Shown: positions 3,879-24,063 of the stretch, one piece after another | Layout of the letters: each line of letters opens with the position of its first letter | Numbering within the stretch: position 1 is the stretch's first letter | Virus record (IMG/VR): IMGVR_UViG_3300039159_000714 | Coordinates: 1 to 25,287 of that record | Source of the DNA: a virus | Length of the DNA stretch: 25,287 nt | Reading direction: 5' to 3' (one strand) | Notes under the pieces: generated by a model | Seen by the model: the letters and a program-made list of their open reading frames with translations, nothing else | What the model was told of the DNA's origin: nothing | Databases searched by the model: none | Program-made: the position numbers and the translations under genes

Positions 3879-5641
3879 GTTATTTCCAAAGTTTGAATGT
3901 CTGTTGATGTGTAACCGGTTACCCAATATGTATTACTAGTTCCTGTGATATAGGGATTTACTAGCGTAAATGAACTTCCATCATTTATAGTCTGAGTCTC
4001 CCCAAAACCTGGTTTTGTAATATTCTTCGATAATGTTTCCGTGTGGGTGAAATTATCGGATAAGATCTTACCTAATGTTTTATTTATCAGGGATTCTGTG
4101 ACTGATAGATTATCCCCGAGAACCTTGTTCATATTGAACAATCGGAGAGTCTCTGTGGCAGCAATCGAATCTGATAGTATCTTTGTGAACGCCCGAAGTA
4201 CGGTTAATTCCGCGGGAGTAAAGGTATCGGCCACTGGCTTTGATGTAGATAGAGCAACAGTATCAGAAGAGAAGAATACATCAAATAGATTAATACTATC
4301 CTTACTGATAATTCTAGATACAACCGCAGCAAAATCGATGTCTGTCCGGAGAGCTAATTTTTTAAAGTACTTCATACCAGCCGGGTGGGCCAGATTGATC
4401 ATTCTATCCTGCAACGCATTGTTAACACGGGATGAAATAATATATGAGAAGGCTTGGTAATAGAAGTTATCCTGGAGTCGATAAACATCATTGGATAGCT
4501 GACCATCTTCGTTCTTCCAAACCCCTTTGTTTTTAGCAGAAAGACTATAGACAAGCCTCAGGGTGGCCCGCGATTCTAACCAATCATCCAACGAGATACC
4601 ACCGGGATCAAAATCGGTAACATCTTCTATCAGCTCGGCGGATTCACTAGCCAAGATTTGACCAACTCCAAAGTATCCTTGGAGTACATATGGCTCTGGC
4701 ACTGTATAGTCATTGATATCCAATCCAGCACTGACATTTTCATAAATGTCGTATACTATATCGTCAAATGTTAGGCTGTGGGCATAAGGCCCTGTGCCGC
4801 TTATAGAGTAATTGTACTTTGTCCCAAACGGCTTATATTTGTAGGGGGATATAATAAACTGTTGGCCCGTATTATGATACATCCCGAAGCTAATAACTTC
4901 TATACCAAGAATAGAACCTCTTCTATTTACTCTCGTTACTCGGGCAAAGGTATCACGATCGGACCCGGGGATAATTATCAAACTCCCGATCTGCCAAGCG
5001 GCCCCACCGGCTGCAATATCAATAGCAGAGACGCATTCAATATGATTTGCTGAATACGAGATAGCCCCTGCACCATCCTGCTGAATTAGTATACCTGTTG
5101 GGTCATACTGAGTTAATGATCTAACATAGAGTCTTAAAGTATTTCCGACTATCTCATGCCTAATGGGCAAAAGGGAATATCTAATTCCATCCTTTTTGAT
5201 CTCGTAGTACACCGGCCGCAACGGGTCATATGTCCCAAACTGCAGATTGGCCTCGATGAAATACTCTTGCTCCCATAGACCCGCTGAGGTCCGGAGCATG
5301 TTATCACCGGGATACTCGAATGAAATTTCCTCATTAAAGATAACACGGTATAGATATGCAAAGGATTCTGGTGAACCCCGGGAAGCATAGAACTCTTTGG
5401 CGTGTCTCAGAAACTCGCGGATGTTAATGGAGTCCAACCCCGGAATTCCAGCGGCAAAATCTCTCCGATAGTACTCTAGAAACTTGTCATCAACAAGATC
5501 AATGTCCTTTATGGAGAATAGATCTACTTTAATAGTTTCAAGGTAGTTGTAGTACTCTTGAATAAATGAGACAAACGCGGGATATTCTTCCCGAACTACT
5601 TCAGGGATGCTACGATCTATTGTGGCCGCTAGATAGGTCAT
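3875..5641 (-). CDS. baseplate/tail structural protein (gp7 position) with C-terminal 19-aa repeats
   Basis: A 588-aa protein directly downstream of gp6 (ATGA overlap at 5638-5641), the position gene 7 occupies in T4, although T4 gp7 is far longer (1032 aa). The first ~130 residues carry a conserved myovirus baseplate pattern: EYPAFVSFIQEYYNYLE, a DID-LVDDKFLEYYRRDFAAGIP stretch, then FYASRGSPESFAYLYRVIFN and a YPGDNMLR turn. This pattern is frequent in tail proteins of T4-like marine phages. The middle is beta-rich. Residues 488-544 are three consecutive 19-residue repeats (ILSDS..., VLGDN..., ILSDN...), followed by a short C-terminal beta segment. These resemble fibre shaft repeats. Assigning it as a gp7 counterpart rests on gene order and is uncertain; a baseplate role is well supported. 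Confidence 0.7.
   Translation of the reverse strand: MTYLAATIDRSIPEVVREEYPAFVSFIQEYYNYLETIKVDLFSIKDIDLVDDKFLEYYRRDFAAGIPGLDSINIREFLRHAKEFYASRGSPESFAYLYRVIFNEEISFEYPGDNMLRTSAGLWEQEYFIEANLQFGTYDPLRPVYYEIKKDGIRYSLLPIRHEIVGNTLRLYVRSLTQYDPTGILIQQDGAGAISYSANHIECVSAIDIAAGGAAWQIGSLIIIPGSDRDTFARVTRVNRRGSILGIEVISFGMYHNTGQQFIISPYKYKPFGTKYNYSISGTGPYAHSLTFDDIVYDIYENVSAGLDINDYTVPEPYVLQGYFGVGQILASESAELIEDVTDFDPGGISLDDWLESRATLRLVYSLSAKNKGVWKNEDGQLSNDVYRLQDNFYYQAFSYIISSRVNNALQDRMINLAHPAGMKYFKKLALRTDIDFAAVVSRIISKDSINLFDVFFSSDTVALSTSKPVADTFTPAELTVLRAFTKILSDSIAATETLRLFNMNKVLGDNLSVTESLINKTLGKILSDNFTHTETLSKNITKPGFGETQTINDGSSFTLVNPYITGTSNTYWVTGYTSTDIQTLEIT
4010..4180 (-). repeat. three tandem 19-residue repeats
   Basis: Residues 488-506, 507-525 and 526-544 of the 588-aa protein align without gaps on a pattern [IV]-L-[SG]-D-[SN]-x-x-x-T-E-[TS]-L. 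The DNA copies are diverged. Confidence 0.75.
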
Positions 5642-7413
5642 ACTGATGTCTTATTGGCGATTATGTTGATAGTCGTTAGATCTGGCGGAAGCGTGACAAT
5701 ATATTGTCTTCTTGGCACAATGTCATTTACATCTGGCTCAAACATGAACTCAAGTTCAGCGTCATATAAGCCAGAAATGTTTAGTTGTGGTATATTTATT
5801 CTTCCATTCCCATAATCAATAGTCCCAACCGGGCGGATGAATGTGGCCACACCCTTGATATCCTCGGAGAAAACATTTATTATACCGCGGCCATTATCCT
5901 TAATATAACAGCGATCGACCACGGTTTCTATGAAGAACCTAGTGCTCCAAAAGGTTGTATTCCCCACGTTATGCTTAATAGGGTTGTTGAATATCGTGGT
6001 GTAATTAGCATTAGAGTTGAAAAGAACTCTTACTGGTTTCCGAACTCGAATGGTGGATAGATTGCTGGTAATGCTAAAATCCGCGGCGTCAATTCGGCCC
6101 ACCAATGTAGAATATCTAAACTGAGAATCAAATGTATTCAGGGTAGTACCGTATTGTATAATGCTGTTGCGCACGATAGTCTGAAGTTGCCCTGAGTTCC
6201 ACTTGGCGATTAGGGGATCATAAAACACGCGGGTGTTGAATTGAATCCGCAGATACTCCGGATCAACGATGACTGGTGATACTGTAACAACTTTTCTGCT
6301 GTCCAAAATACTGCTGAGGATCGTGGCCTTCTCTGCCTCTGAAACAACCTCGCCCCCGAACGGCTTCATGGCAATAAAAACCTTACCAAAGATTGGAGGC
6401 ACATTGTCCTGCCCGCCCCAGACTCGGACTGTTTCGATATTCGTGTTGATCGAGCGAATCAGTGTTTCATAGTCGGATGATGTAACCGCCCGATTCTGAG
6501 TAATATAGGTCCTTGGGGCGTTGGTCTTGATGGAGTCGAGCGACTCTGGATTTGCACCACCCGAAGAATTCTGACCCGGTACCGTCAGCGTTGCGTCATA
6601 GAACAAATCGCCCCGGAAGCCAGAGGAATAAGTGAACGCAGACCCAAGATTTGCCCCAGGGCCGTTTGTGTCCGTATAGGTCATCACCACATTGTTACCA
6701 GGAACCAGGGCCTTACCGATGATGCCGTCCCCGAAGGATGCCTCATAGTATAGATCTTCTCTCTGCTTAATAAAAAATGTCTTCGAGGTCGGTGTGATTG
6801 TTAGAACCCCATCGGCCAGATTGTATTTTGTGAACTCGGAACCGTCCTGGATTCTTACCGAGAGGCTAGTCATATCGGCCCGAAGCGAGGGGATGACATA
6901 GTAAGAAGTTGGCGTAACAGGGATCGTGACGGTTCTTTGTTCGCCCTCGATCAGCTCGATGTTCGTGAAGTAATAGGAGCCCAAAACAAGTTCGGCACTC
7001 ACATCGATCCGAGTGTTGAAGTAATAAAGAACCCCGTTGATCGATGTGCTGAATCTGGTCCCAGTGGGGATCGTTAGAATTGGAACCGGCACCAGCCCTG
7101 GATCGGTCACGACTAGATCAATTCTGACCCGCGAAGCCCGAACGCTCTTGGCGGTGTATCCCATCATCTTTGCGAGAGACACTGCACTTGAATACTTTGA
7201 AACCGAGTCCATGAACATCTCGTTCACAGCAAAGTTCGTGGTCAATCCAGCATAATGAGTGTTGTAGGCAAGGACACTGATCAGTGTGCTAAGAGCAGAA
7301 CCTTCGAAGTTATAGTCCTTGAATACTTCTTGACCAGACAAATATGTCTTAATATTGGTGGCAATCTCATCAAAGTCGAGCTCTGTAGTCTGAATCTTTT
7401 TATTGGTAGCCAT
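5638..7413 (-). CDS. gp6: baseplate wedge subunit gp6
   Basis: A 591-aa protein, slightly shorter than T4 gp6 (660 aa). It has the typical gp6/baseplate-J-like N-terminus: a TTELDFDEIATNIKTYL segment, then F-KDYNFEGSALSTLISVLAYNTHY and NEMFMDSVSKYSSAVSLAKMMGY. The central part has a YYEASFGDGIIGKAL motif and an RAVTSSDYETLIRS motif, both standard in baseplate-J/gp6 proteins. gp6 dimers form the inner ring of the baseplate that holds the wedges together around the hub. It starts 3 bases after the gp25 stop and its stop overlaps the next ATG, so gp25, gp6 and the following protein are translated together, as their joint assembly would need. Confidence 0.95.
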   Translation of the reverse strand: MATNKKIQTTELDFDEIATNIKTYLSGQEVFKDYNFEGSALSTLISVLAYNTHYAGLTTNFAVNEMFMDSVSKYSSAVSLAKMMGYTAKSVRASRVRIDLVVTDPGLVPVPILTIPTGTRFSTSINGVLYYFNTRIDVSAELVLGSYYFTNIELIEGEQRTVTIPVTPTSYYVIPSLRADMTSLSVRIQDGSEFTKYNLADGVLTITPTSKTFFIKQREDLYYEASFGDGIIGKALVPGNNVVMTYTDTNGPGANLGSAFTYSSGFRGDLFYDATLTVPGQNSSGGANPESLDSIKTNAPRTYITQNRAVTSSDYETLIRSINTNIETVRVWGGQDNVPPIFGKVFIAMKPFGGEVVSEAEKATILSSILDSRKVVTVSPVIVDPEYLRIQFNTRVFYDPLIAKWNSGQLQTIVRNSIIQYGTTLNTFDSQFRYSTLVGRIDAADFSITSNLSTIRVRKPVRVLFNSNANYTTIFNNPIKHNVGNTTFWSTRFFIETVVDRCYIKDNGRGIINVFSEDIKGVATFIRPVGTIDYGNGRINIPQLNISGLYDAELEFMFEPDVNDIVPRRQYIVTLPPDLTTINIIANKTSV

Positions 7414-16867: not shown

Positions 16868-18934
16868 ATGAACCAAGATAATCCAAACCGACCGCCAGAT
16901 AGTCAAGACGATATAGCACCGCAAAACCCCAACTCTTTAACGGGCGCCGGTTTGACGGGCGCCGGTCTGGCGGGCTTTGGGAATCTGGATGATGAGGCCG
17001 ATATCTTAAGGCAGCGCCAGATTGCTCTGGATGAACAGCGGCTTCGGCAGTCCCAGGAAGAAATAAAGAACAGTAGTATTCTAACAAAGGCCCTCCTGGG
17101 GCTGACACAGAGCATAAAGACTAGCTTCGGAATTAAGGCCACGGATGTAAAAAAGAAAGATGGGCTTTTCTCCTCCCTCAGTGGTGGTCTCGGGGCCTTC
17201 AAAGATGACAAGGTTCGTCAACTAAAGTCGGTAACATCAGCCGCTGGGTTATCTGGTCTCGTAGCGTCAAGGTTTGATCCCACAAGTATGATGGGGCAGA
17301 TGGCCACCGGTGTGGCAAATAATTATAAGGATCGGGATGAAAAAAGAACTAAGGCCGCAGACTTTCGAAAGGCGTTTGCCGAGAACACAGAGATGGGTCG
17401 GGAGCTATCGACCCGAGGTGTGGATGAGGCTGTTCAAACATTCAAGACCAGCAACCCAGATGCAACCCCGGAGCAAATAGAAGAGGCCCGTGTATCCGCG
17501 TCCAAGGACAAGGGCATTGCCAAGAGAACCGATCGAGCCATAACTTCTCGGGCATCAAGATTACAAGCTGTCTCCGAGGCCCGAACAGATCAGAAGCTGT
17601 TCTTAGAAAACAAACTCAAAAATGCTCAGAGTACTTTTGGGGCTGGTGCTTCTCTGAGCGATGAGGATGCGGCTCTATTGGCCAAGGCCCAAAAGTCTTT
17701 ATCTGGAAACAAAACCCCTAAGCCAAAAAGAACAAATCAACCTGCCGCTGGAGTCCTTGGTGCCGGTGCTCTCGGTGCGGCCGCTAGCGAGGATCTTTCT
17801 ACGTCCGGGACTCTTCAGCATAATTTAGCCACGCTGATCGTGGAGGAGTTTAAGAAGAATAACCCCAACGCCGACCCAGAAGTAACTAATGAGGTTTATG
17901 AGGGCGCCATGGAGGGGGCCTTGGCCGAACTGCGCGATCTTGGGCAGGAACAGCTCGAGGAACTAAGGAAGATCGTTGCTGCCGGCATTACAGAAGAAGA
18001 AACCACCGAGGAAATAGCCTCCGGTATTTCAGAGCTTGTATCGGATGGTAATGAAGCCCAGGCCCTGGCCGAGGAGGAGCGCCTCGAGAGAAGTGATGCT
18101 GGGCTTGAGGGTGACCAAAGGATTCAGAGACTAGAACCAGAGAAAGAGAAAAAGTCTGGTCTCTTGGACATGCTCATGAATTTAGTCCCAGGCGTGGGTA
18201 AACTAACCAAGGCACTCGGACCTATTGGTGCTAAGATCGGCGCGGTAGCCGCGTCACTCGGCCCTATGGCACTCAAGGTAGGCGCAGCGATCGGGCCTAT
18301 GGCTACAATGGCGGCAAAGATACTTGGGCCAGCGGCAGCGGTGGCAGCTTCCGGTGCTGCGGGCTATGCTGCGGGCGGGGCCCTGAATAAATTTGTTCTG
18401 GACCCTCTGGCTGGCAAAATGACCGGTGATGAGAATGATACAGTAGGGACTGCTTTATTCTCGGGCGTTGACAAGATGAAGAGTATTCTTGGTATGGAGA
18501 CCGAAGCAGACAAGCTGAAAGCAGCCGATAAGGCTGCAATGGAAAACTTGATTGAAACCAAAAAGAAAAGCGGTACTAAAATAAGTGCTATGAGTGCTGC
18601 TTCTGCTAAAGCAATGGGGATCGAAGTACCCGAAGATATGATCGGCGCGCAGGGTGAAAAAATATCTCCAGTAACACCGGCAACCGTGGTCCAACCTGAA
18701 CCCACCAAACCCGAAATTGTAAAGTCCGAAGATATCAGCGGTCTTCAGGACGCAATCAAGACAAACACCGAGGCCGTGGAGGATGCTAAAGATGAGGCGA
18801 AAAAAGAGGCGCCCACTACAATAGTAAGCGCCCCTGTTTCAAATGTGAACAACACTACATCCATAAAGAATCGGATCGCGATTCGTAATCAAGAGCCGTT
18901 CATTATGATGCACATGCGTCAGCACATGGTCTGA
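16868..18934 (+). CDS. gp29: tape measure / tail length determinator (gp29 counterpart)
   Basis: A 688-aa protein (T4 gp29 is 590 aa). It has a disordered N-terminus containing a TGAG-LTGAG repeat, long charged helical regions (residues about 45-410), a hydrophobic Gly/Ala-rich segment (about 431-515) that could enter the host membrane, and a C-terminus ending in a TTIVSAPVSNVNNTTSIKNR-type tail. Size, helical content, the hydrophobic segment, and the position after gp26 and its likely frameshift product all fit a tape measure that sets tail length and exits ahead of DNA. Direct similarity to T4 gp29 is not recognisable by eye. Convergent with the minus-strand 53-aa gene, only 2 bases apart and without an obvious terminator. 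Confidence 0.75.
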   Translation: MNQDNPNRPPDSQDDIAPQNPNSLTGAGLTGAGLAGFGNLDDEADILRQRQIALDEQRLRQSQEEIKNSSILTKALLGLTQSIKTSFGIKATDVKKKDGLFSSLSGGLGAFKDDKVRQLKSVTSAAGLSGLVASRFDPTSMMGQMATGVANNYKDRDEKRTKAADFRKAFAENTEMGRELSTRGVDEAVQTFKTSNPDATPEQIEEARVSASKDKGIAKRTDRAITSRASRLQAVSEARTDQKLFLENKLKNAQSTFGAGASLSDEDAALLAKAQKSLSGNKTPKPKRTNQPAAGVLGAGALGAAASEDLSTSGTLQHNLATLIVEEFKKNNPNADPEVTNEVYEGAMEGALAELRDLGQEQLEELRKIVAAGITEEETTEEIASGISELVSDGNEAQALAEEERLERSDAGLEGDQRIQRLEPEKEKKSGLLDMLMNLVPGVGKLTKALGPIGAKIGAVAASLGPMALKVGAAIGPMATMAAKILGPAAAVAASGAAGYAAGGALNKFVLDPLAGKMTGDENDTVGTALFSGVDKMKSILGMETEADKLKAADKAAMENLIETKKKSGTKISAMSAASAKAMGIEVPEDMIGAQGEKISPVTPATVVQPEPTKPEIVKSEDISGLQDAIKTNTEAVEDAKDEAKKEAPTTIVSAPVSNVNNTTSIKNRIAIRNQEPFIMMHMRQHMV

Positions 18935-21820: not shown

Positions 21821-22258
21821 TTATTTTGTGTTCAATTTGTTGATGTACCAGCGGCGTGCCACATTGGCGATCGGGCCCCCGAGCCTTTTCACGTCGATCT
21901 GATTCTCCACGATCTCGTCCTGAGATTCTTTGATACAATCGGCATACACAAGTCGGATAAACTCGCCCATGGATTGCATCTCGAAAGGGAGTAGCTTTTC
22001 CCGAACCATGTTTTGAAGCATTTGCTCAAGCCGGTTCTCGGTAACAAACATCTCCACATAAGCATTGATGGTCTCGAGTTCGGCCACGTCGACCAGCTTT
22101 GTGGTTTTCACCTTCGTTACCGAGTGGAGCTCACCTTTAGATTTGAACCAGTAGCCAGAGTCATTGATTGTTTCCACGGGGGTCCACACTAAACCTTCAC
22201 CGATGAAATCGATATTGAATGCGCCGGAGGAGGTGTTACTTTTCCAATTGATTTGCAT
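21821..22258 (-). CDS. RNA ligase (Rnl2-type), detached C-terminal half
   Basis: A 145-aa protein holding only the last part of an Rnl2-type ATP-dependent RNA ligase: motif IV IGEGLVWTP (residues 19-27, Glu21), motif V YWFKSKGE (36-43, Lys39/Lys41), then the helical C-terminal domain (ELETINAYVEMFVTENRLEQ, and a region ending in NVARRWYINKL), comparable to the C-terminal domain of T4 Rnl2. There is no nucleotidyl-lysine, so alone it cannot form the ligase-AMP. The N-terminal half is encoded on the same strand about 1 kb upstream (23246-24028). The in-frame TAA upstream of the ATG rules out a longer frame. It has its own early-type promoter (22287-22315) and a weak GAG Shine-Dalgarno. Either the two halves reassemble or the gene is decaying; both frames are intact and compositionally normal, which favours function. 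Confidence 0.82.
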   Translation of the reverse strand: MQINWKSNTSSGAFNIDFIGEGLVWTPVETINDSGYWFKSKGELHSVTKVKTTKLVDVAELETINAYVEMFVTENRLEQMLQNMVREKLLPFEMQSMGEFIRLVYADCIKESQDEIVENQIDVKRLGGPIANVARRWYINKLNTK

Positions 22259-22286
22259 GTTTTTCTCGTGTTTAGGATTAAATTAT

Positions 22287-22315
22287 ATTATATCAGGTGT
22301 AGCGATAAAAGTAAA
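22287..22315 (-). promoter_or_regulatory. early-type promoter copy A, before the ligase C-terminal half
   Basis: Minus strand TTTACT (22315-22310), 17-bp spacer beginning TTTATCGCTAC, then TATAAT (22292-22287). Expected start near 22280 with a leader of about 22 nt. Shares its spacer motif with copies B and C. Confidence 0.75.
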
Positions 22316-22317
22316 AC

Positions 22318-22467
22318 TTATTTGTTCACTGAATGCTCATACATCCGCTTGGCGGCTTGTTCAACCGTCTCACAAAAAAGGCTGTAAAAACCGGCGTCGA
22401 TCATAGTTTGAATCTTGTTGATCCAAATGAGTTGTTGGCCGGAGGATAAGTTCTCAAATAGAAGCAT
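22318..22467 (-). CDS. 49-aa ORF inside the ligase split, function unknown
   Basis: A short frame (MLLFENLSSGQQLIWINKIQ, then FYSLFCETVEQAAKRMYEHS). Its stop lies 2 bases before the -35 of promoter copy A, the compact spacing expected of a real phage gene, and the amino-acid composition is normal and helical. There is no good Shine-Dalgarno before the ATG, and a hairpin (22493-22529) lies upstream. It does not fill the missing part of the ligase. It may have arrived with the endonuclease cassette or be a former neighbour. Confidence 0.45.
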   Translation of the reverse strand: MLLFENLSSGQQLIWINKIQTMIDAGFYSLFCETVEQAAKRMYEHSVNK

Positions 22468-22485
22468 AATCTAAAATCACAGGAG

Positions 22486-22493
22486 TATAAATA
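22486..22493 (+). promoter_or_regulatory. late promoter TATAAATA for the homing endonuclease
   Basis: Exact TATAAATA on the plus strand. The expected start near 22499 falls inside the left arm of the following hairpin, so late transcripts lack most of that arm. The endonuclease ATG is 54 bases further on. Confidence 0.7.
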
Positions 22494-22529
22494 AAGGGTA
22501 GCCGCGAACCGCCAAGTTCCGCTACCTTT
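22493..22529. other. hairpin in the endonuclease leader / possible terminator for the other strand
   Basis: Left arm AAAGGGTAGC, right arm GCTACCTTT (nine pairs with one bulged G), plus an inner GAAC/GTTC stem around a 6-nt loop. On the minus strand the hairpin is followed by CTTTATTTAT, resembling a weak terminator that could stop early transcripts arriving from the ligase N-terminal half. On the plus strand it sits between the late promoter and the AGGAG ribosome binding site (22543-22547). Confidence 0.55.
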
Positions 22530-22552
22530 ACTCAACCCAGTTAGGAGTCTCT

Positions 22553-23257
22553 ATGAGCAACAAAACTATTTATCATTACGTCTACCGTATCACCAACCTA
22601 GTAGAGAAAAAGCACTACTATGGAGCTAGAACTTCCAGAATCCACCCAAAATTAGATATCGGAGTTAAGTACTTTAGCTCTAGCAGAGATAAAGCCTTTA
22701 TGCGGGATCAAAAAGATAATCCGACGCACTTTTTGTATAAAGTGATTGGGCTTTATCAGACTCGAATTGAAGCATTAGAAATGGAGATAAAGCTTCACAA
22801 TAGGTTGAATGTTGCAGTCTCTAATAAGTTCTATAATAGATCAAAGCAAGCTTCATGGGGGTGGGATACTACTGGTATAGTTATAGTACGTACACCTTCG
22901 GATGAAACTATAGCAATTCCCGTCTCAGAGTATAATCCCGATTCAGCAGACTATAAACACCATAATTCCGGAAGAAAGCATAGTATCGAGCAAAATATAG
23001 CTAATTCTATTAGAAACTCTGGTTCGAAAAATGCTATGTATGGTTCTGCTCGGTTAGGAGATAAAAATCCGTTTTATGCAAAAACTCACTCGGTTGAGGC
23101 TAGAGAGAAAATACGGCTAGGAAGGCTTGAATTCTTGAAAACAAATGAAGATCCTACTAAGGGCCGAATTTGGTATACAAACGGCACAATCAATAAAAGG
23201 CTAAAGCCTGGCACTGCTATACCAGAGGGCTTCAGGCAGGGCCTTTCAAAAAGATAG
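22553..23257 (+). CDS. GIY-YIG homing endonuclease with NUMOD3-type DNA-binding motifs
   Basis: A 234-aa protein. Residues about 6-95 form the GIY-YIG nuclease: YHYVYRITNLVEKKHYYGAR carries the two signature strands (degenerate, YVY...YYG), then an FLYKVIGLYQTRIEALEMEI helix with the catalytic-type Glu and an HNRLN ending. Residues about 138-195 hold two to three NUMOD3-like helix units (GRKHSIEQNIANSIRNSGSK, GDKNPFYAKTHSVEAREKI). The end WYTNGTINKRLKPGTAIPEG is a C-terminal motif shared by many phage homing endonucleases. It nicks or cuts DNA of endonuclease-free relatives near its own insertion site, so that repair copies it across. It is AT-richer than its neighbours and points against them, as expected for an invader. 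Strong AGGAG site before the ATG. Confidence 0.92.
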   Translation: MSNKTIYHYVYRITNLVEKKHYYGARTSRIHPKLDIGVKYFSSSRDKAFMRDQKDNPTHFLYKVIGLYQTRIEALEMEIKLHNRLNVAVSNKFYNRSKQASWGWDTTGIVIVRTPSDETIAIPVSEYNPDSADYKHHNSGRKHSIEQNIANSIRNSGSKNAMYGSARLGDKNPFYAKTHSVEAREKIRLGRLEFLKTNEDPTKGRIWYTNGTINKRLKPGTAIPEGFRQGLSKR

Positions 23258-24028
23258 AGTGAATTCAGTCTCAGTCTGCAAAATCTTTTGGCACTCACCT
23301 CGCAACTGGATCGGCAAACTATCCACGGTTTCTTGATTCACAACAAACCCATTAAACTCTTTGAAGAATGCCATGGCAACCGGGCACTGGGCTTCCACCT
23401 TGTTCACGAGCTCAACGATATCATTCTGAACCCGGTGCGGATTCTCGAAGTCGATTTCCATCTCGTAGGTGGGGAAGTTGAGGATGTTGTGGATGCCGTC
23501 ATCCGGGAGCGTGATGTGTTTCACCCAATCTAGATCAATCCACAGATTATTTTCTTCGGTGCCATCTTCAACACTGGGGATAACCTTAACACCGAAGATC
23601 ACGAACATCTTGGGAATTGCGTTCAGCGCCACCGACTTCTGGATAGAACCGCCACACCATTCACCAAACACCACCATCCGGGCAGGATCAACACGCATCC
23701 CGATGGCCATCCGCATAACATCCATCATCTCGAGAATTTTTTCTTGCTTGCCCAGCATTGAGAGCATGAACCCGGCGTTATCTTGCTCAAGGGTAAGAGT
23801 TCGTTCACGGGATTGGAATGCAAGATCCTGAGTATGGGGATCATATACGATTGCGGCATTGGTGCCGTGCATCTTTACTGTACCACGGTACTCGATCGTG
23901 GGGAGCGGGGCATTATTGTAAACCGGATCACCGTTTTTATCCTTGCCCGAATAACGAGTACGCTGGGAAACATGGCGGATGGCATTGGCGAATTGGCCGA
24001 TAGAAGGGAAGGGGAAGAATGTTTTCAT
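23246..24028 (-). CDS. RNA ligase (Rnl2-type), N-terminal half
   Basis: A 260-aa protein with the first part of an ATP-dependent RNA ligase: motif I KMHGTNA (predicted nucleotidyl Lys52), an FQSRERTLT strand (71-79), motif III VVFGEWCG (119-126) followed by the Rnl2-like IQKSV, and motif IIIa KMFVIFGVKV (140-149). It stops before motif IV. The ligase-like sequence runs to about VEAQCPVAMAFF (to residue 222); the last 38 residues replace motifs IV, V and the C-terminal domain, which are encoded separately at 21821-22258. No intein block A or exon-intron signature is seen at the break. Promoter copy B places the transcription start on or next to the A of the ATG. T4 Rnl2 seals 3'-OH/5'-phosphate RNA nicks. 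The 3' end overlaps the endonuclease gene by 12 bases. Confidence 0.85.
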   Translation of the reverse strand: MKTFFPFPSIGQFANAIRHVSQRTRYSGKDKNGDPVYNNAPLPTIEYRGTVKMHGTNAAIVYDPHTQDLAFQSRERTLTLEQDNAGFMLSMLGKQEKILEMMDVMRMAIGMRVDPARMVVFGEWCGGSIQKSVALNAIPKMFVIFGVKVIPSVEDGTEENNLWIDLDWVKHITLPDDGIHNILNFPTYEMEIDFENPHRVQNDIVELVNKVEAQCPVAMAFFKEFNGFVVNQETVDSLPIQLRGECQKILQTETEFTLSF

Positions 24029-24034
24029 ATGCTT

Positions 24035-24063
24035 ATTATAAAACGGGTAGCAATAAAAGTAAA
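24035..24063 (-). promoter_or_regulatory. early-type promoter copy B, before the ligase N-terminal half
   Basis: Minus strand TTTACT (24063-24058), 17-bp spacer starting TTTATTGCTACC, TATAAT (24040-24035). The predicted start coincides with the ATG at 24028, implying a leaderless or almost leaderless mRNA. Confidence 0.78.

Follow-up and report, generated by a model that had tools for sequence, protein, structure and literature searches.

Enzymes split by the insertion of mobile endonuclease genes are so far known from few phage genes. In the T4-like Aeromonas phage Aeh1 (NC_005260), a free-standing endonuclease gene interrupts an enzyme gene in the order nrdA-A/mobE/nrdA-B (PMC2988022), and the two NrdA proteins, each with added ends, make up one active enzyme (PMC2988022; PMC3267527); according to the title of Crona et al. 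2011, as cited in PMC3267527, the interaction domains derive from the mobile element. In phage T4, insertion at a functionally critical region of the topoisomerase gene (gene 39/mobA/gene 60) resulted in separate subunits (PMC2988022), and in Aeromonas phage 25 the two polypeptides of the split DNA polymerase, 43A and 43B, co-purify with polymerase activity (PMC2988022). A survey from 2023 counts 'at least one instance' of function retained in an endonuclease-split enzyme (PMC10448857). The initial annotation of the locus described here had cited T4 39/60 and Aeh1 nrdA as genes split by mobile endonuclease insertions with function retained, which is correct (PMC2988022). It had also noted that a two-subunit RNA ligase split between motifs IIIa and IV was not known to be described; in agreement with this, a limited literature search, with subscription papers mostly outside it, found no split, bipartite or heterodimeric RNA ligase.

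The locus in question, an RNA ligase gene in two pieces, resembles the Aeh1 system in its free-standing endonuclease, its T4-like phage background, the splitting of an enzyme gene and the added ends. The Aeh1 case differs in the enzyme affected and in having an HNH endonuclease on the same strand; further, the tail and leader of Aeh1 NrdA have no significant sequence likeness to those of the ligases studied here, and reassembly was demonstrated experimentally for Aeh1, whereas the RNA ligase is known from sequence. With T4 39/60 it has in common an endonuclease insertion and separate pieces of one enzyme, but the T4 enzyme is a topoisomerase, mobA is of the HNH type rather than GIY-YIG, and gene 60 contains a 50-nt ribosomal bypass. 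Phage 25 43A/43B likewise presents two polypeptides with an adjoining endonuclease gene (seg-type); however, the endonuclease origin of that split is uncertain, whereas for the ligase intact relatives make the origin plain. Finally, phage PR1 has a two-chain ligase of the nucleotidyltransferase type, which, to judge by the title of the structure record 9hu3, is a heterodimeric DNA ligase and not an RNA ligase.

An Rnl2-type ligase gene in two pieces

The window, i.e., the whole stretch of DNA analysed, is a virus record of 25,287 bases. Its gene content is that of a T4-like myovirus, with genes for baseplate wedge and hub proteins, tail tube, head closure, DNA end protector, ssDNA-binding protein, helicase loader and late-transcription regulator. 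Adjoining the baseplate genes is a 688-aa ORF (16868-18934) with zero PHROG matches.

The N-half of the ligase (23246..24028, minus strand; 260 aa), recognized as an Rnl2-type RNA ligase by its motifs, PHROG match and phylogeny, carries motif I (K52 in TVKMHGTN), motif III (E123 in VFGEWCG) and motif IIIa (F145 in FVIFGV), and motif IV is absent from it. The C-half (21821..22258, minus strand; 145 aa) begins shortly before motif IV (E21 in GEGLVW), followed by motif V (K39 and K41 in WFKSKG) and a helical C-terminal domain. The motif set of Rnl2-type ligases (I KxHGTN, III, IIIa, IV and V) is hence complete across the two ORFs, and the catalytic residues of both halves are invariant across relatives. 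Against the RNA ligase family PHROG 548, the N-half matches positions 3-196 of 341 (E 9.5e-33) and the C-half positions 201-340 of 341 (E 5.8e-23); since the halves tile the family almost without a gap, essentially no part of the enzyme is missing.

The ligase ORFs are separated by 987 nt (22259-23245). Between them lies a gene on the plus strand (22553..23257) for a 234-aa GIY-YIG homing endonuclease with NUMOD3, identified by matches to NUMOD3 and to a PHROG homing endonuclease family; being antisense to the ligase, it shares 12 nt with the stop end of the N-half. The initial annotation, which had proposed two open minus-strand ligase frames divided between motifs IIIa and IV, an Rnl2-type C-terminal domain on the second, and an opposing GIY-YIG gene in between, is thus borne out in each of these elements by motif reading and the domain and family matches. 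By pattern match, each half also has a promoter-like site on the minus strand: TTTACTTTTAT...TATAAT ahead of the N-half (24035..24063) and TTTACTTTTAT...TATAATATAAT ahead of the C-half (22282..22315). The latter is situated inside the insert and has the phage-type consensus that also precedes the N-half and further genes in these phages, again going by pattern match.

Intact alleles and the added ends

Three relatives from other records (L011, L033 and L034; loci compared here carry L numbers) encode one fused ligase of 349 aa in the same gene order with the same flanks and without the insert, and two of them, L011 and L034, are the nearest relatives of the window ligase. The initial annotation had named, as an arrangement that would speak against a split, relatives with the 145-aa protein as a separate gene beside a full-length ligase; in L011 and L034 this arrangement is absent, the ligase being fused and its flanks syntenic. 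At the junction, L011 reads CPVGLAFGVDSIGEGLVW, which corresponds in the window to CPVAMAF followed by 39 unrelated residues in the first ORF, and to MQINWKSNTSSG followed by AFNIDFIGEGLVW in the second. The alignment indicates that the enzyme keeps all its sequence, to which a tail and a leader have been added.

The tail (FKEFNGFVV...EFTLSF; 39 aa; 23249..23365, minus strand) comprises residues 222-260 of the N-half, ligase homology ending at residue 221. As BLAST alignments extend beyond that residue, the tail was considered as a decayed motif IV-V region and this was rejected: tails score no higher than shuffled sequences against the family profile. A search for relatives of the tail found none. 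The leader of the C-half, delimited by alignment to relatives, consists of the 12 residues MQINWKSNTSSG (22223..22258, minus strand), and its sole other occurrence is in L010. The window tail and leader, known in one or two copies, are unlike the type-2 tail and leader described below.

Intact genes are the rule in this family: a script test in the first rounds found 158 of 167 ligase loci intact and flagged nine, two of which (L074 and L166) proved intact on inspection. No split ligase was seen among named phages, where in 146 of 149 matching records a single place accounts for 80% or more of the intact ligase; likewise, a search of 84,980 prokaryote genomes recovered five relatives of the C-half, every one in an intact frame. 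A different type of interruption was observed in L139 (4249-6396) and L138, where a 715-aa Rnl2-type ligase ORF contains an apparent intein directly after motif III (EWCG); the annotation of Pseudaeromonas phage KLEP7 likewise places an intein in the ligase at motif III.

The window insert and its endonuclease

Besides the endonuclease, the insert contains an orphan 49-aa ORF (22318..22467, minus strand) for which no significant relative was found; the insert of L002 likewise has two small ORFs between its endonuclease and C-half. Relatives of the window GIY-YIG protein (L014-L024) have the N-terminal catalytic domain in common and differ in the C-terminal part, a pattern that looks as if DNA-binding parts had been swapped; those inspected are antisense to their neighbour genes. 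The catalytic domain also shows 54% identity over 98 aa to that of the endonuclease splitting L186.

The L010 contig starts inside the window's insert, and its opening 121 bases match window positions 22304-22184 (22184..22304, minus strand) exactly, covering the insert edge and about 39 nt of ligase exon up to the motif IV codons; because this stretch sits at the end of a contig and is about as long as assembler k-mers, 121 nt should be taken as a minimum, and an assembly effect is possible. Beyond it, identity falls to 74.7%, and the C-half cores of the two phages have diverged to a pS of 0.72 and a pN of 0.13. A pattern of this kind would be expected from homing in which a short stretch of exon is co-converted. 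An exact-pattern search for further records with the window's insert returned L010 only, and the insert could be recent.

The same break in other phages

Further ligase genes are split between motifs IIIa and IV in L002, L167/L168 and L113, and a search with the tail as query added the split loci L186, L188, L189 and L190. Maximum-likelihood phylogeny of the ligase cores places the split genes in four distinct clades, the closest neighbours of each being intact genes: (i) the window with L011/L034 (support 100/99); (ii) L002 with L062/L066 (98/94, inside a clade with 100/100); (iii) the L191 group beside L076 (99/91); (iv) L113 with L035/L040 (98/96). The branch of the window ligase is not long. 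The tree thus indicates that the same break arose at least four times independently, at points only a few codons apart. Wherever the contig of a split phage spans the locus, both halves are retained together, and, with the exception of L113, every split case provides the C-half with a start codon of its own.

L113 (4488-6390) differs from the window in having an HNH endonuclease at the same break. Its ligase has lost the N-terminus to a fusion with a kinase-like gene upstream, and motif IV is preceded by no usable start; owing to both defects the gene looks broken. The probable explanations are a gene in decay or a fault of assembly, and the case suggests that insertions of this kind can also leave a gene defective.

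At the other extreme, L186 (4281-7670) encodes an RNA ligase in three pieces, interrupted by two different GIY-YIG endonuclease genes, one antisense (4630-5460) and one sense (6185-7192). Here the antisense gene interrupts the N-half a second time, near residue 81, where a 40-aa tail and a fresh start are found, and residues have been added at each new ligase end. In L200 (892-3422) it is a neighbour gene, encoding an ATP-dependent DNA ligase, that is split: the break lies before GIPRYESNG, the intervening gene encodes a related GIY-YIG protein, and a 27-aa tail and a leader have been added. Two tRNA genes are located immediately upstream of this DNA ligase. We also considered the tails and leaders of the window, L113, L186, L200, type 2 and Aeh1 as possible kin; this was unsupported: of the many pairs compared, a few gave p values of 0.002-0.046 without correction.

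A type-2 cassette and the selection on its tail

In the second type of split (L191, L188, L190 and L002), the endonuclease gene is on the ligase strand, and the cassette comprises an N-half tail of 55-58 residues, the endonuclease and a C-half leader of about 30 residues. This tail and leader occur in two ligase lineages that are only distantly related: L191 and L002 are 48.5% identical in their N-cores, 54.5% in their tails, 65.6% in their endonucleases and 44.8% in their leaders, while the L002 N-core is 77.7% identical to that of the intact L066. Further, among L188, L190 and L191, the endonuclease has a dS of 0.39-0.48 against 0.65 to over 1.9 for the ligase cores of the same phages; the cassette is thus younger than its surroundings. 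Signs of mobility, all of them read from sequence, comprise the four clades, the lower endonuclease dS and the 121-nt identity with L010.

The type-2 tail, which occurs in split form only, is under strong purifying selection: its dN/dS among L188-L191 is 0.03-0.12, and a comparison of synonymous with nonsynonymous changes gave Fisher p values of 1e-14 to 4e-4 for the pairs of L188-L191 (1e-14 for L188-L190, 6e-11 for L189-L190 and 4e-5 for L188-L189). The type-2 leader has too few changes for selection to be judged, and constraint on the ligase cores was left out as proof, as it may predate the split.

In one member of this group, L189, the endonuclease has been deleted down to a remnant of about 120 nt (6181-6303), on either side of which the N-half with its tail and the C-half with its leader have retained intact frames. 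The split has here survived the loss of the endonuclease. Since the tail is under selection and the halves outlive the endonuclease, the halves probably still work together, and L189 gives the clearest indication that the tail and the halves are of use to the ligase.

Structure models

The model of the intact L011 ligase (mean pLDDT 91) has as its best matches 2hvr, 2hvq and 1s68, all T4 RNA ligase 2. For the split form we used a proxy from L189, whose halves share one frame, so that the stretch including both could be read through as a single chain with stops replaced by glycine. In this model both cores are of high confidence and the Rnl2 nucleotidyltransferase fold is rebuilt, residues 6-380 superimposing on 1s68 with a Z of 15.6 and 3.6 Å over 203 residues. 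The model includes an artificial 41-residue linker, and its alignment consists mostly of intact ligases, so assembly is expected and the result speaks for compatibility of the halves, not for their association. The tail (pLDDT about 45-68) and leader (55-82) were modelled with low confidence, and we make no claim of a contact between the two.

Both models match the T4 Rnl2 fold, with its nucleotidyltransferase and helical C-terminal domains, and T4 RNA ligase 2 (2hvr, 1s68), the best structural match of each, also has the same motifs I, III, IIIa, IV and V. It differs in being one polypeptide and in having less than 20% sequence identity; moreover, L011 scores 32.9 bits against the T4 Rnl2 equivalog model of NCBIfam (TIGR02307), far below its cut-off of 197. 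The window-type ligase is hence best classified as a distant branch of the Rnl2 type, and not as a T4 Rnl2 equivalog.

Proposed mechanism and competing explanations

We propose that insertion of a mobile endonuclease gene has turned an Rnl2-type ligase into a two-subunit enzyme that is reassembled without splicing, a reading to which we assign a probability of about 0.7. Briefly, a free-standing GIY-YIG gene, with flanking DNA providing a promoter and a new start codon, would have entered the ligase gene of a T4-like phage and broken its nucleotidyltransferase domain between motifs IIIa and IV. The halves would then be made as separate proteins, with no splicing of RNA or protein, and join as one ligase, the N-half supplying the adenylated lysine and the C-half the motif IV glutamate, the motif V lysines and the C-terminal domain. 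The peptides at the new ends, i.e., the N-half tail and the C-half leader, probably help the halves meet. The endonuclease, for its part, would cut intact alleles, with repair copying the insert and a short flanking exon. We infer the association, the ligase activity, the part played by tail and leader, and the activity and cut site of the endonuclease, and consider two-subunit ligase function likely.

A simpler account would have the ligase dispensable and the split gene a young pseudogene, its halves just not yet decayed. Laboratory phages can often do without their RNA repair ligases, the like insertion in L113 accompanies a deleted N-terminus and a C-half without a usable start, and a recent date for the window insert would fit as well. 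Nonetheless, we regard this account as unlikely, though it retains a real chance of being right: the window halves keep every catalytic residue, their branch in the tree is not long and the C-half has, by pattern match, a promoter-like site of its own. Decay is also at odds with purifying selection on the type-2 tail, which is confined to the split form, and with the retention of both halves in L189 once the endonuclease was gone.

Homing endonucleases often reside in introns and inteins, and this ligase family does have inteins at motif III (L139; KLEP7); the insert might accordingly be spliced out of the RNA, as a group I or II intron, or out of the protein, as an intein or split intein, to give a normal one-piece ligase. 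Yet Rfam scans of the window, L002, L191, L186, L113, L200 and L189 found no group I or II intron, and the window endonuclease is antisense. An intein is contradicted by a tail that starts without Cys or Ser, by the lack of a terminal His-Asn ahead of the C-half core, and by searches for a Hint domain and for Pfam inteins, which gave no match. As the C-half also has a start codon everywhere but in the broken L113, splicing appears very improbable. Ribosomal bypass as in T4 gene 60 was likewise rejected, since the C-half starts by itself and the gap in L189 has several in-frame stops. Nor do we give much credence to one or both halves acting alone in a new role, such as a truncated adenylyltransferase or a nucleic-acid-binding protein. 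Isolated Rnl2 nucleotidyltransferase domains do keep some activity, and the C-half is separately promoted by pattern match, but the halves are kept together in all split phages with a contig covering the locus, and the break, being inside the nucleotidyltransferase domain, leaves the N-half without motifs IV and V.

Going beyond the two-subunit ligase itself, we tentatively advance a broader idea, which we hold at somewhat less than even odds: the cassettes of free-standing homing endonucleases in T4-like phages might carry portable peptides, one for each half of any gene entered, that bind each other and restore the enzyme, constituting a third way beside introns and inteins. A split thus fixed would become an ordinary two-subunit enzyme outliving its invader, as L189 may illustrate, and the process would be repeatable in one gene, as in the three pieces of L186, or in neighbours, as in the DNA ligase of L200.

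Implications

What is new here is the recurrence of the split in four clades, the selection on the tail, the loss of the endonuclease in L189, the three-piece ligase of L186 and the split DNA ligase of L200. A two-part RNA ligase with its active site shared between chains would offer a natural split tool with which to ligate RNA. In evolutionary terms, one ligase family displays the full course of events, from the intact gene through at least four splits to a selected tail, the loss of the endonuclease and a three-piece form. Two questions are thereby made testable: how the halves come together, and whether the means of doing so are supplied by the mobile endonucleases.
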